Origin: Sebaldella termitidis ATCC 33386
Lineage (GTDB): Bacteria > Fusobacteriota > Fusobacteriia > Fusobacteriales > Leptotrichiaceae
DNA: 64,000 nt
Direction: 5' to 3'
Assembly (NCBI RefSeq): GCF_000024405.1
Contig: NC_013517.1
Coordinates: 1,674,001-1,738,000 of the forward strand
The notes beneath the pieces were generated by a model that had not been told where the DNA came from, ran no database searches, and saw only the letters and a program-made list of their open reading frames with translations. Position 1 is the first letter of the stretch. The number at the start of each line of letters is the position of its first letter. Positions 2,488-8,864 of this stretch are shown here, one piece after another. The position numbers were made by a program, and so were the translations under genes.

Positions 2488-3930
2488 ATGAAAAAAATTT
2501 TTCTGATGTTATTCTTTTTAGTTTTACTGCAGATATCTTACGGGACTGATAAAATAAAGTCCTCGATTGTAAAGATTTATTCTACACATCAGCAGTATGA
2601 TTACAGAAGTCCTTGGCAGAACGGGTCTGATTATAATTCCACTTCGACAGGCTTTATAGTAGACGGAAACAGAATTCTTACCAATGCTCATGCAGTATTG
2701 AGCAACAGGTTTCTTCAGGTTAGAAAAGAAGGAGAGTCAAAAAAATATAAGGCCAGTGTAGAATTCATTTCCGAAGAGTATGATCTGGCATTAATAAAAG
2801 TAGAGGAACCGGGATTCTTTAACGGCACTGTTCCGTTAAAATTCTCAGGAATACCGATGAACCGGGATAAAGTAGCTATTTACGGCTATCCGATGGGCGG
2901 GGACAAGCTGAGTATAACAGAAGGGATAGTATCCAGAATAGAGCACAGCAAGTATACTCTGACAACAGAAAAGTTTCTTATAGGGCAGACAGATGCGGCA
3001 ATAAATCCCGGAAACAGCGGCGGACCGGTGATTTCCAAGGGGAAAATAGTGGGAGTGGCCTTTTCTGGACTGCTTGGTGCGGATAATATAGGATATTTTA
3101 TACCTACGCCGATCGTGGAACATTTTTTAAATGATATAAAAGACGGAAATTATGACGGGATGCCGAAACTGGGTATTATCTGGTCAGAGCTTGAAAGCCC
3201 GTCACATAGAAAAATGCTCGGAGTGGAAAATACATCAACTGGGATATTAATAAAAAAAATAAAGAAAAATTCTCCGTTTGAGGATATTTTGAAAAAAGGA
3301 GATGTCCTTTTGAAGCTGGATAATTATCCGATAGAATATGACGGGACAGTGGAGTTCAGAAAAAATGAAAGAACAGATTTTAATTATGTAGTACAAAATA
3401 AGAATTTTGGGGAATTTCTCAGATATGAAGTAATGAGAGACAGAAAGAAGGTTTCCGGAGAAATAAAGCTGACAAAGGACAAAATTCCTTTTGATCTTAT
3501 AAAAAACAGCTCATTTGAAGAGCCGCCCACATATTTTATATACGGGGGATTGATTTTTGAACCGCTTACCGATATTTATATTAATAATTCTCCGATAAAG
3601 CTTCCGGAAGACGTAGACAGCATACAGGGACTTCAAAATAAAACAGAACTGGTAGTGCTGGTAAGGGTGCTTTCAGATGATGTAAATATAGGTTATAACA
3701 ATTATTACGATGCGATAATTACACGGGTTAACGGAGAGAGCTATACCGATTTCAGAGATTTTGTAAGAATAGTAAAGACATCAGACGAGCAGTTTATGAA
3801 ATTTGAAGATATTGACGGAAATGAGATAGTTCTTGATACCCGTCAGGTAGAAAAAAGAAATCCTGAAATATTTCAAAATTACAGCATAGACAGGGAAATG
3901 TCTGCTGATATACTTGATATTTCCCGTTAA
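2488..3930 (+). CDS. HtrA/DegP-like trypsin-family serine protease
   Basis: 480 residues with a cleavable signal peptide (residues 1-19). The catalytic triad of the trypsin-like fold is visible: His68 in TNAHAVL, Asp99 in EEYDLALIKV and Ser177 in NPGNSGGPV. A PDZ-like segment follows (about residues 225-320, LGIIWSELESP then SPFEDILKKGDVLLKLDN), and a C-terminal extension of about 150 residues holds a second PDZ-like pattern (YNNYYDAIITRVNGESY). This arrangement resembles plant-type Deg proteases with an extra divergent PDZ domain. It probably acts in envelope protein quality control. A lipoprotein gene follows after 19 bases. Confidence 0.88.
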   Translation: MKKIFLMLFFLVLLQISYGTDKIKSSIVKIYSTHQQYDYRSPWQNGSDYNSTSTGFIVDGNRILTNAHAVLSNRFLQVRKEGESKKYKASVEFISEEYDLALIKVEEPGFFNGTVPLKFSGIPMNRDKVAIYGYPMGGDKLSITEGIVSRIEHSKYTLTTEKFLIGQTDAAINPGNSGGPVISKGKIVGVAFSGLLGADNIGYFIPTPIVEHFLNDIKDGNYDGMPKLGIIWSELESPSHRKMLGVENTSTGILIKKIKKNSPFEDILKKGDVLLKLDNYPIEYDGTVEFRKNERTDFNYVVQNKNFGEFLRYEVMRDRKKVSGEIKLTKDKIPFDLIKNSSFEEPPTYFIYGGLIFEPLTDIYINNSPIKLPEDVDSIQGLQNKTELVVLVRVLSDDVNIGYNNYYDAIITRVNGESYTDFRDFVRIVKTSDEQFMKFEDIDGNEIVLDTRQVEKRNPEIFQNYSIDREMSADILDISR

Positions 3931-3949
3931 AACTAATCTGGAGGCAATT

Positions 3950-4231
3950 ATGAAAAAACTGATATTTTTAATAATGCTGCTTTTTATATCGTGTACAGCT
4001 GTAACTGTACCAAAAACTTCCGTGTACACAAAAGATCAGATACTGGAAATAGGAATAAATGAAGTAAAGCGAGTATACGGACTGGACATAGACAAGGAAA
4101 ATACGGCAATATTCAAATCCGGATACGGAGAATGGAAAATAGTTCTGTATAGTCCTACGAATCCTATATTTGTTTTGATTAATGAAGATGGAAGTATAAA
4201 AAGTGTAGAGATGAAAGATTACATTCAATGA
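3950..4231 (+). CDS. Small putative lipoprotein
   Basis: 93 residues from the ATG at 3950, preceded by CTGGAGGC; a longer frame from 3914 would overlap the protease gene and lacks a ribosome site. The N-terminus MKKLIFLIMLLFISCTAV is a lipoprotein signal with the lipobox ending at Cys15. The mature part is a short alpha/beta unit (QILEIGINEVKRVYGLDI ... WKIVLYSPTNPIFVLINEDG) with no family I recognise. It lies 19 bases after the protease gene and is followed by a terminator, so the two are probably co-expressed at the envelope. Confidence 0.75.
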   Translation: MKKLIFLIMLLFISCTAVTVPKTSVYTKDQILEIGINEVKRVYGLDIDKENTAIFKSGYGEWKIVLYSPTNPIFVLINEDGSIKSVEMKDYIQ

Positions 4232-4360: not shown

Positions 4361-5038
4361 ATGAAATATTCATTTATCGGAAAAATATTCAGGGATGGAA
4401 ACAGAAATTACATAAAAATTCCTTTTAATGTATGGGAGACATGCGGACAAAAAGGGATGATTCCGGTCAAGGCGGATATTGAAAGTGTTGTTTTTGAGTG
4501 TAAGCTGGTTCCTAAAGGACACGGAAATTATTATATTCCGGTTTTAAAAGCTTTTTCAGACAAACTGGGTAAAACAGGGGAATTAAAGGTAAGTTTTGAA
4601 ATAATAGAAGAATTAAGCAGAATTAACAGCAGAAGTCCGTATACAAAGAAAGAGCCGGTTAGAAAAATAGACAATATAGATCTGGTTTTGCAGCCGGAAG
4701 CAGGCTTATGCGGACAGGCGTGTCTTGCGATGTTATCAGGGGCGGACATCAAGGAAATAATAAAAATAATGAAATGCGGGAAATGGCAGGCGAGCTTTAG
4801 CAGGGTCATTGAAACACTGAATTATTTTGGAATAGAACATTCTGAAAAAATAACTTATACACAAAAAAAAGATATTGAGCTTTCGAAATGCTGTATTTTG
4901 AATATAAGGGATGAAAAAAGCTTAAAGGGCAGTCATATGGCTGTTTATTTTGATAAGAAATTTTATGATCCTGTATATGGAATTTCTGAAAAATATAACA
5001 GAGCTAAGATAATTTCTTTTTTAGAGATAAAAGTGTAA
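4361..5038 (+). CDS. DUF1905 domain fused to a C39-like cysteine peptidase domain
   Basis: 225 residues in two parts. Residues 1-85 match the DUF1905 pattern (a small beta barrel: YSFIGKIFRDGNRNYIKIPF, then GNYYIPVLKAF). Residues 105-225 look like a papain-fold C39-type peptidase: LQPEAGLCGQACLAML with Cys117, then GSHMAVYFDKKFYDPVYG with His192 and Asp203 as the rest of a triad. There is no signal peptide, so the protein should be cytoplasmic. C39 domains usually process double-glycine leaders or act as free peptidases; the substrate here is unknown. The ATG has AGGGAGG upstream. The fusion is unusual. Confidence 0.7.
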   Translation: MKYSFIGKIFRDGNRNYIKIPFNVWETCGQKGMIPVKADIESVVFECKLVPKGHGNYYIPVLKAFSDKLGKTGELKVSFEIIEELSRINSRSPYTKKEPVRKIDNIDLVLQPEAGLCGQACLAMLSGADIKEIIKIMKCGKWQASFSRVIETLNYFGIEHSEKITYTQKKDIELSKCCILNIRDEKSLKGSHMAVYFDKKFYDPVYGISEKYNRAKIISFLEIKV

Positions 5039-6266: not shown

Positions 6267-6417
6267 TTAATATTTTACAGATTTTGGTTATGGTATTTTA
6301 TAACAGAATAAGGTAATATAAAATGAAGGCATTACTATGTAAAATAGAAGAATTGTACATGTCTTCCAAGGAAGAAATTTGAGTATACGGACAGGGCAAA
6401 ATATGTAATATAAAAAA

Positions 6418-6455
6418 GAGATGTTCTCACATAAAGGAGAGAACATCTTTTTTAT
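6418..6455. terminator. Bidirectional intrinsic terminator between mnmA and the tetR gene
   Basis: A ten-base stem AGATGTTCTC/GAGAACATCT with an 8-base loop, flanked by T on the plus side and by A (T on the minus strand) on the other. It can end both convergent transcripts. The stretch 6267-6417 before it shows no convincing gene. Confidence 0.85.
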
Positions 6456-6471
6456 TTTATAAATAATTTCA

Positions 6472-7056
6472 TTATCCTGCATTGGCTTTCAGAAGCTTAT
6501 CGAATATAAAGAAAAAGTCAGTAATGGCATTTTCTTTTTTCTCCAGCTTTATTTTAAGCATAGTTCCTTCCATCTGAGAAACAAGAACTCTTGCTACTTC
6601 CTCTGCCTGAAGTGTCTTGTAGTTGGGATTTATATTTTTCATCATGGATAAAAAGAAAGAAAACTTCATTTCTATTTTTCTGTATGATAAAAGCAGATGC
6701 TGTCTTATATCCTCATTTACATCGGACAGTTCATTGGCAATATTGCCGAGAGGGCTTCCTCCGTGGTAGCTGTTCAGCTCCACATTTGAGAAAAAATTAT
6801 GAAAAAATACCTTAAATTTAGGAATGGAAAGATCATTTACAGTTCTGTCAAAAAAACGTATTATATTGTTAGTATGATAATCAATGACATGAATAAGCAG
6901 ATCATCTTTATTTTTAAAATAATAATAAAAGGAACCCTTTGGAATATTACAAACTTCCAGGATTTCCTTCAGTCCGGTATTTACGTATCCGTTAAAATAA
7001 AAAAGCTTCGCGCTTTCTTCAATAACTTTTCTTTTTTTTATTTCAGTCTTTTTCAT
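6472..7056 (-). CDS. TetR/AcrR family transcriptional regulator
   Basis: 194 residues. The N-terminal helix-turn-helix is typical (KVIEESAKLFYFNGYVNTGL then CNIPKGSFYYYFKNKDDLL), followed by an all-helical ligand domain as in the YxaF/LmrA-like branch. It is transcribed away from the MATE efflux gene at 7349, the usual layout of a local repressor that controls itself and the pump. Its promoter (7120-7092 on the minus strand) and the pump promoter (7138-7166) are back to back. The ligand is unknown. The gene product may add a second control layer to a pump that also has a riboswitch. Confidence 0.9.
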   Translation of the reverse strand: MKKTEIKKRKVIEESAKLFYFNGYVNTGLKEILEVCNIPKGSFYYYFKNKDDLLIHVIDYHTNNIIRFFDRTVNDLSIPKFKVFFHNFFSNVELNSYHGGSPLGNIANELSDVNEDIRQHLLLSYRKIEMKFSFFLSMMKNINPNYKTLQAEEVARVLVSQMEGTMLKIKLEKKENAITDFFFIFDKLLKANAG

Positions 7057-7091: not shown

Positions 7092-7120
7092 ATTTTATAA
7101 CTATATTTGTTTCTTGTCAA
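7092..7120 (-). promoter_or_regulatory. Candidate promoter of the tetR gene
   Basis: On the minus strand: consensus TTGACA (7120-7115), a 17-base spacer and TAAAAT (7097-7092). Confidence 0.6.
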
Positions 7121-7137
7121 ATAGAATATTGAGAAAC
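7109..7137. promoter_or_regulatory. Possible TetR operator between the divergent promoters
   Basis: GTTTCT at 7109-7114 and AGAAAC at 7132-7137 form an interrupted inverted repeat centred at 7123. It covers the -35 element of the tetR promoter and abuts the -35 element of the MATE promoter. Only six bases per arm match, so this is tentative. Confidence 0.25.
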
Positions 7138-7166
7138 TTGATTTTTTTTTGAGAATTTAGTATTAT
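7138..7166 (+). promoter_or_regulatory. Candidate promoter of the riboswitch-MATE transcript
   Basis: TTGATT (7138-7143), a 17-base spacer and TATTAT (7161-7166). The predicted start near 7173 lies about 20 bases before the riboswitch aptamer. Confidence 0.65.
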
Positions 7167-7194
7167 AGCTATAAATTGAATAAATTTAGATTTT

Positions 7195-7280
7195 CTAGGG
7201 TTCCGTAATATATAAATTAGTCTGGTCCGAGAGAAAACACGGTAATTATACCGGACACGGAAGGAGAAAAGCCTAGGAGG
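7195..7280 (+). promoter_or_regulatory. Guanidine-I (ykkC class) riboswitch
   Basis: The conserved blocks of the ykkC aptamer appear in order: CTAGGGTTCCG (7195-7205), TCTGGTCCGAGAGA (7221-7234), ACACGG repeated (AACACGG near 7237 and ACACGGAAGGA near 7255) and AAAAGCCTAGGAGG (7267-7280). The first and last blocks pair (CTAGG with CCTAG) as P1. In this family guanidinium binding stabilises P1. The 3' block is also the 5' arm of the terminator at 7265-7317, so ligand binding should prevent termination and switch on the MATE gene. The ykkC fold also has ppGpp, PRPP and other subtypes; the efflux gene favours the guanidine type. Confidence 0.9.
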
Positions 7281-7317
7281 ATATTAACAATATCGCTCCC
7301 GGGCTTTTCTTTTTTTT
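7265..7317 (+). terminator. Riboswitch-controlled intrinsic terminator
   Basis: AGAAAAGCCTAGGAG (7265-7279) pairs with CTCCCGGGCTTTTCT (7297-7311) with an inner GATATT/AATATC hairpin, followed by eight T. The 5' arm reuses the P1 3' strand of the aptamer, the expected architecture of an ON switch. Confidence 0.88.
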
Positions 7318-7348
7318 ATTCAAAAATTTTTATTCAGGAGGGAAAAAA

Positions 7349-8686
7349 ATGGAAAGAAAAAAGAATCTAAAGAATATGCTGAGATATGTAATTCCAAGTG
7401 TGACAGCATTAATGGTGAATTCTGTTTATATAATTGTAGACGGGTTTTTCGTAATGAAAGGTGTAGGTGAAAAGGCCCTTGCTGCCGTAACTCTGAGTGT
7501 GCCGTTTTTGGAAGCACTGATAGCAGTCAGTATGCTTTTGTCAGTAGGAGCAGGAATTTATATTTCGTATTATTTGGGGAAAGGCAGTAAAAATACTGCA
7601 AATACAGTATTAAATACATCTTTGGCATTACTGTTTCTGGTTTCGGCTGTAATCAGTATTTCAGGAATAGTATTTTTAAAAGATTTGGCTCGTATACTGG
7701 GAGCAGATGAAACTATGACAGAATTAGTGTGTGATTATTTGAAATATCTGCTTTATTTTTCACCTGCTCTTATTCTCAGTTATGCACTGGCGACATTTTT
7801 GAGAAATGACAATAAACCCGGTCTCGGAATGATTGCCATGATATTTGGTGGTTTGGCAAACGGGATATTGGATTATGTGTTTATTTTTGTATTTAATATG
7901 GGGATAGAAGGTGCAGGACTTGCTACCGGATTAGGACCTGTATTTAGCATATTAATCATGATGCCGCATTTTTTTCTTAAAAAAGGGGATTTATATTTCC
8001 GCTTATCGGCTTTTAGCTTTAGATACTGTAAAAAGATACTGACTGCAGGGATTCCCGCTTTTATTACTGAATATTCCCTAGGAATAGTAACTTATCTTCA
8101 TAATTTTGTGATAATAAGAATTTTGGGTGAGCAGGGAGTGGCAGCTTATGGAATTATAGGTTATGTAGCTCTTATAGTACTCACATTCTATCTGGGGATT
8201 TCTCAGGGGATACAGCCACTGATAAGTATGGCTTACGGTGCAGGAAAGGACAGAGAGCTGAAATTTTATACCAGAGTGTCCTTTATATTTGCAGGAATTA
8301 TAGGAATAGTTAGTACAGCAGTGATAATAGTATTTGCCCGTCCGATAACAGAAATTTTCTCGGGGAATAATTCAGAATTAACAGCTGTAACTGTATATGG
8401 TCTGAGAATATACTCCGTTAACTTTATTTTAGCAGGTATAAATATTTTGGCAATTTCAATATTTCAGTCGGTACAGAAAGTGAAAACAGCTTCTGTAATA
8501 GCTGTAATAAGAAGTACTGTATTTGTGTATGCAGCCCTTATGACACTTCCAGTGTTTTTTGGAAGCCTTGGAATATGGCTTTCGATGCCGTTTGCAGAAG
8601 CTGGAGCTTTTCTTGTAATTCTGGGAATTTGTATCTTTACACTGCGTGATGAAAAAGAAAAAAGAGCAGAGCATGTAATTTTATAG
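7349..8686 (+). CDS. MATE family multidrug/cation efflux transporter
   Basis: 445 residues with about 12 transmembrane helices in two homologous halves (MLRYVIPSVTALMVNSVY at the start; GIPAFITEYSLGIVTYLHN opening the second half). MATE transporters export cationic compounds using sodium or proton gradients. The ATG follows AGGAGGG. Expression is predicted to need release from the guanidine-I riboswitch terminator upstream, and the divergent TetR may act too. Guanidinium export is the natural hypothesis from that control, but known dedicated guanidinium exporters belong to the SMR family, so the substrate is an inference. Followed by a terminator. Confidence 0.92.
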   Translation: MERKKNLKNMLRYVIPSVTALMVNSVYIIVDGFFVMKGVGEKALAAVTLSVPFLEALIAVSMLLSVGAGIYISYYLGKGSKNTANTVLNTSLALLFLVSAVISISGIVFLKDLARILGADETMTELVCDYLKYLLYFSPALILSYALATFLRNDNKPGLGMIAMIFGGLANGILDYVFIFVFNMGIEGAGLATGLGPVFSILIMMPHFFLKKGDLYFRLSAFSFRYCKKILTAGIPAFITEYSLGIVTYLHNFVIIRILGEQGVAAYGIIGYVALIVLTFYLGISQGIQPLISMAYGAGKDRELKFYTRVSFIFAGIIGIVSTAVIIVFARPITEIFSGNNSELTAVTVYGLRIYSVNFILAGINILAISIFQSVQKVKTASVIAVIRSTVFVYAALMTLPVFFGSLGIWLSMPFAEAGAFLVILGICIFTLRDEKEKRAEHVIL

Positions 8687-8704
8687 TTTGTTTAATAATA
8701 AAAG

Positions 8705-8749
8705 CAGACAGTTTCAGAGGAGTTATCTCAGAATTACTGTCTGTTTTTT
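8705..8749 (+). terminator. Intrinsic terminator after the MATE gene
   Basis: CAGACAGT paired with ACTGTCTG across a 23-base loop, followed by six T. Confidence 0.8.
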
Positions 8750-8864
8750 ATATTCCACTGAAAGAACCTTAAATTTTATAATATATTAATTTAAATTCAA
8801 AAATATGGTATATTTTCTTGAAAAAATAGTCATTTTAAGATACTATATAAAGGAGGTGAATATT

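Follow-up and report, generated by a model that had tools for sequence, protein, structure and literature searches.

In the gut bacterium Sebaldella termitidis, a guanidine-I riboswitch appears to control a single gene, encoding a MATE family transporter, by transcription attenuation, and this transporter most likely exports guanidinium. We put the probability of this reading at about 0.8. The riboswitch itself is real and mostly ordinary, and it is the target gene that is uncommon. The locus lies in a 64-kb stretch of DNA, hereafter the window, to which all coordinates refer unless a locus is named.

Identity of the aptamer

A reading of the sequence alone (hereafter the sequence-only reading) had recognised all conserved blocks of a guanidine-I aptamer and had asked for a covariance-model search. 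The Rfam search of the window bore this identification out: the guanidine-I (ykkC subtype 1) aptamer was found at 7184-7281 (+) with a score of 75.1 bits (RF00442, gathering score 63, E = 1.6e-11). It was the sole Rfam family to reach its threshold in the window, and even at permissive thresholds no other family came near the guanidine-I score at this site. The conserved blocks were complete, 24 of the 27 consensus pairs were canonical, and the aptamer was present as a single copy in the genome (4,486,650 bp, 3 contigs).

For comparison of the subtypes, ykkC hits from Fusobacteriota and Clostridia were lined up. All compared hits of at least 72 bits carried CC[G/A]AGA, whereas those below 67 bits carried CC[G/A]AGC and mostly ACACC where the others had CACGG. 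The pocket marker in the window and in the sister genome G025 is CCGAGAG, which is the guanidine type (the ppGpp/PRPP type being CCGAGCG), and the window aptamer also has the guanidine-type ACACGG. It has been reported that guanidine aptamers have A46 and that the ppGpp/PRPP variants have a pyrimidine there (PMC6031431). The equivalent of A46 in the window aptamer is A, not the pyrimidine of ykkC subtype 2. The marker split among the compared hits is the same as this published rule, and the window aptamer belongs to the guanidine type. Gene context mostly tracked the marker: A-type sites preceded mostly exporters, and C-type sites preceded NCS2 permeases, the acetolactate-synthase small subunit and purine genes. 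The window aptamer scored below most of the compared guanidine-I hits (75 versus mostly 76-97 bits), and it carries GGAGAAAAGCC, whereas the majority of guanidine-I hits carry GGAUAAAAGCC. Family membership and the marker nucleotide together suggest that the aptamer binds guanidinium.

The sole other ykkC RNAs in the family were those at L003 and L004 (Sneathia-like genomes G028 and G027, respectively), which are aptamers of the ykkC subtype 2 type (45-48 bits, CCGAGCG) located before NCS2 purine permeases.

Expression platform and predicted switch

A sigma-70-like promoter site for the riboswitch-MATE transcript (TTGATT-17-TATTAT, 9/12) was located at 7138-7166 (+), and its counterpart in G025 reads TTGATT-17-TATAAT. 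Downstream of it, an intrinsic terminator occupies 7266-7317 (+), with a hairpin at 7266-7309 followed by a tract of eight U at 7310-7317. None of 200 shuffles was as stable as this terminator (-30.3 kcal/mol, z = -6.84), and it is kept in G025. The 3' strand of P3 (7272-7276, +), which pairs with 7262-7264 and 7256 in the Rfam consensus, sits in the 5' arm of the terminator, and P3 and the terminator are therefore mutually exclusive. The sequence-only reading had proposed that the aptamer and a strong terminator share this strand, and our results agree with it. The Shine-Dalgarno-like AGGAGGG at 7336-7342 (+), 6 nt before the MATE start, lies outside the terminator, which indicates control by termination and not by translation.

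In the full-length fold without ligand the terminator was favoured by about 31 kcal/mol (-43.0 kcal/mol, against -11.4 kcal/mol when the aptamer is forced, in a model that omits the ligand and tertiary contacts). With the terminator so far ahead, switching must be kinetic and take place during transcription. According to the mechanism that we propose, transcription would start near 7170-7180 and, when guanidinium is absent, the nascent RNA would fold the terminator and transcription would stop. When guanidinium is present, the aptamer would hold P3 (7262-7264 with 7272-7274, and 7256 with 7276), so that the shared strand would be barred from the terminator and RNA polymerase would read into the MATE gene. 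The transporter would most likely lower intracellular guanidinium by export, taking the role played elsewhere by Gdx/SMR proteins, and the divergent TetR gene would be an older neighbour that the switch logic does not need. We infer that the riboswitch is most likely an ON switch, in which guanidinium stops termination and MATE is made; guanidine-I riboswitches usually act as transcriptional ON switches (PMC12186494).

The MATE gene

The gene at 7349-8686 (+) encodes a MATE family efflux transporter of 445 aa. As had been proposed, it is the sole regulated gene: it is the only gene in the transcript and is followed by its own intrinsic terminator at 8700-8749 (+; -19.3 kcal/mol, z = -5.26). 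Its product matched Pfam MatE (2.5e-44; 151.3 bits, cut-off 24.9) and TIGR00797 (160.6 bits, cut-off 147.4), but stayed under the equivalog cut-offs of MepA (100.9 versus 850), FepA (210.6 versus 900) and VmrA (232.4 versus 445). One ortholog was found, in G025, with about 83-84% identity. The next relatives were at most about 37% identical and were spread over the phylum and plasmid records, and when the genome collection was scanned for the peptide patterns of this MATE, no relatives came up. Among solved structures, BH2163 is its nearest relative. Many members of the MATE family are multidrug pumps, and sequence does not reveal which substrate a given member carries.

The genome contains at least six other MATE genes, and the window MATE is the sole gene located behind a guanidine-I site. 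Moreover, the PF00893 search detected no SMR gene in this genome, and the same search was positive in 8 of 14 control genomes. Considering the riboswitch, the missing SMR gene and a second, independent lineage with the same pairing (see below), the window MATE is a candidate guanidinium exporter and probably transports this ion. Near another MATE gene of the same genome (C1:595624), but on the other strand, a fluoride riboswitch barely exceeded its threshold (L313, 202-280; 35.7 versus 34 bits).

Rarity and recurrence of the pairing

Of 125 guanidine-I sites sampled across phyla, one had a MATE gene downstream, in Clostridium punense. The first downstream genes in this sample encoded mainly NitT/TauT-type binding proteins, SMR proteins, agmatinase-like and DUF1989-like proteins and amino-acid permeases; these groups are BLAST clusters named by eye, and the MATE assignment alone was tested by phmmer. 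Among the Clostridia and Clostridiaceae genomes, MATE genes followed 2 of 116 A-type sites, in C. punense and its relative G631, and among 98 Fusobacteriota genomes the pairing was detected in two Sebaldella-type genomes only. Both the C. punense and the G631 loci (L064/L310 and L228/L311) consist of a guanidine-I aptamer, a terminator-like platform and a single MATE gene. A maximum-likelihood tree built from 49 MATE proteins placed the Sebaldella pair and the C. punense pair on different branches and required at least two changes. The pairing thus appears to be rare but recurrent and, judging from the tree, must have arisen independently at least twice.

The low frequency in these samples agrees with a published account in which guanidine-IV commonly regulates MATE genes, and guanidine-I, -II and -III do so 'never or very rarely' (PMC7736828). 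The same account agrees with the remark of the sequence-only reading that a MATE as the regulated gene has received less study than the SMR exporters. Near related MATE genes of the phylum and of Clostridium genomes no guanidine-IV RNA was detected at Rfam thresholds, although Rfam 15 may hold no model of this class. We give even odds to the broader proposal that MATE proteins took over guanidinium export under guanidine-I at least twice independently, in Sebaldella, where the genome is SMR-free, and in the C. punense lineage. If this were true, MATE would be a second protein family devoted to the export of guanidinium.

Other downstream partners of guanidine-I were also observed. A gene for an ACT-domain-like small protein (about 128 aa) directly follows the aptamer in G079 (Fusobacteriales; L006/L009, 7063-7449) and at 12 Clostridiaceae loci (e.g., L284, L214 and L223), and is a recurrent partner without an obvious guanidine role. 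A radical-SAM-like protein (about 234 aa) is encoded after guanidine-I at 29 Clostridiaceae loci (e.g., L258, L142 and L144), and constitutes the second largest downstream group there, SMR being the first.

History of the locus in sister genomes

At the orthologous place in G025 the aptamer, the terminator and the MATE gene are all conserved, and the aptamer shows an A-U to G-C change in P2. G026 is a nearer relative of the window genome than G025 (nucleotide identity of mnmA about 94% and 87%, respectively). It retains the TetR gene and its promoter region intact but lacks the riboswitch and MATE. The alignment with G026 is lost near window position 7178 and picked up again near 8773; the stretch in between, about 150-170 bp, is unrelated, and neither blastn nor tblastn found remnants of the riboswitch-MATE unit in G026 or G024. 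As the unit occupies the same place in G025, the simplest history is a gain before the three genomes diverged and a loss in G026. Its absence from two other Sebaldella-type genomes implies that the unit is dispensable.

In the two Sebaldella-type genomes G025 and G024 (L007 and L309, respectively) kdp potassium-transport genes adjoin the TetR gene, which suggests a neighbourhood prone to rearrangement. In the window, a small lipoprotein-like gene at 3914-4231, resembling one located beside TetR in Leptotrichia-like relatives (L191-L193, L197), is parted from TetR by mnmA. In addition, the gene at 4361-5038 encodes an unusual fusion of an N-terminal DUF1905 domain with a C-terminal region resembling a papain/C39-like peptidase (QPEAGLCGQACLAML).

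The divergent TetR gene

The TetR-family regulator (6472-7056, -; 194 aa) matched Pfam TetR_N (3.4e-10; 40 versus 24 bits) and remained under the equivalog cut-off of the acrylate regulator AcuR (79.8 versus 247 bits). Its gene is followed by a terminator-like hairpin at 6410-6462 (-; -15.3 kcal/mol, z = -5.61), located between TetR and mnmA. A sigma-70-like promoter site for TetR (TTGACA-17-TAAAAT, 11/12) lies at 7092-7120 (-), and a TTGACA/TATAAA-like promoter precedes TetR in several relatives too. The divergent arrangement and the back-to-back promoters described in the sequence-only reading are thus both present. The inverted repeat that it had noted between them also exists (GTTTCT at 7109-7114 and AGAAAC at 7132-7137, with a 17-nt gap; 7109-7137), but it was equalled in about 5% of shuffles, which is near chance, and is doubtful as an operator. 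No longer imperfect palindrome in 7092-7166 rose above chance, and no inverted repeat recurred upstream of TetR in 16 relatives. The outer pair of the repeat is broken in G026, and G025 shows one compensatory change (C-G to A-T).

All 33 family genomes searched gave a best match to this TetR, which in four was limited to the N-terminal half; two of the 33 have the riboswitch and MATE. In several genera the TetR gene is divergent from mnmA, with no pump beside it. Between the window genome (G000) and G025 the TetR protein is 98.5% identical and MATE 83%, which indicates different constraints on the two genes. Third codon positions of TetR diverge nearly as much as those of MATE between these two species. 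TetR is thus a strongly constrained regulator, kept beside mnmA in several genera. We also considered a horizontally transferred cassette of TetR, riboswitch and MATE, which was rejected for TetR because its place beside mnmA is kept in several genera.

Alternative explanations

The RNA could be a non-guanidine ykkC subtype that senses ppGpp, PRPP or NDP. RNAs of ykkC subtype 2 also give weak RF00442 matches, and in Sneathia-like relatives within the family NCS2 permeases are preceded by sites of this kind. However, the window site has both guanidine-type motifs, whereas all low-scoring hits have CC[G/A]AGC and most have ACACC, and its downstream gene encodes an exporter, not an enzyme of purine or amino-acid synthesis, which makes this explanation extremely improbable. 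A more plausible possibility, although we still consider it rather unlikely, is that the RNA senses guanidine merely as a proxy and that the real substrate of MATE is another compound, such as a guanidino compound, a biguanide or a cationic toxin. MATE transporters are commonly multidrug pumps, as are the FepA/VmrA-like proteins of the nearest NCBIfam models, with BH2163 as the nearest solved relative, and for the MATE genes controlled by a variant guanidine-IV class other substrates are assumed (PMC9788692). On the other hand, guanidine riboswitches otherwise control mostly genes of guanidine export or breakdown (PMC12186494), and the joining of two unrelated MATE lineages to guanidine-I, together with the SMR-free genome, favours guanidinium itself as the substrate.

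The sequence-only reading had also suggested two signals for one pump. In such a scheme TetR would bind an operator located between the two promoters and repress transcription of MATE, so that a protein and an RNA input would be combined. The -35 elements of the two promoters are 17 bp apart, and a TetR controlling its own gene would probably cover the pump promoter too. Moreover, the intergenic sequence shows good conservation in both G025 and G026, and the compensatory change in the repeat would suit an operator. Yet the distribution of the regulator did not follow that of the pump, as that of a dedicated repressor would: it is present throughout the family, mostly in pump-free genomes and often by mnmA, and persists with its promoter region in G026, where the riboswitch and MATE are absent. 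Neither did we find a conserved operator-like palindrome in the shared promoter region, and no TetR gene stands beside the guanidine-I MATE genes of C. punense and G631. Dual control is therefore improbable, and this part of the sequence-only reading did not hold. From its distribution TetR looks like an old bystander and not a second control layer. Given the proximity of the promoters, a TetR that regulates its own gene might nevertheless influence the pump, incidentally or by recruitment, and to this we give a low probability. The case also shows that the distribution of a divergent regulator gene in relatives should be checked before a second layer of control is ascribed to it.

Comparison with known systems

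The S. termitidis locus shares its aptamer and its terminator-type ON-switch design with the guanidine-I riboswitches of SMR/Gdx genes, but here the target is MATE and the genome is SMR-free. The window MATE has its best NCBIfam relatives in the FepA and VmrA (PRK09575) type MATEs (210-232 bits), but it is far under their cut-offs (900 and 445 bits) and is a member of neither family. As in the case of guanidine-IV (the mepA motif) with MepA/MATE-like genes, a guanidine-sensing RNA precedes MATE and acts by termination (PMC7736828, PMC12186494), although the RNA architectures are unrelated and here it is guanidine-I that has the MATE partner. The MATE proteins controlled by guanidine-IV are believed to be guanidine exporters (PMC12186494); guanidinium export by these proteins has been proposed (PMC7736828), and the papers that we consulted contain no demonstration of it. 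The C. punense and G631 loci resemble the S. termitidis locus in their guanidine-I aptamer, terminator-like platform and single MATE gene, but their MATE proteins are about 33-34% identical to the window MATE, form a separate branch and have no TetR next door. The clean single-gene case in an SMR-free genome and the independent Clostridium case from another MATE branch provide two well-defined proteins for the question of guanidinium export.
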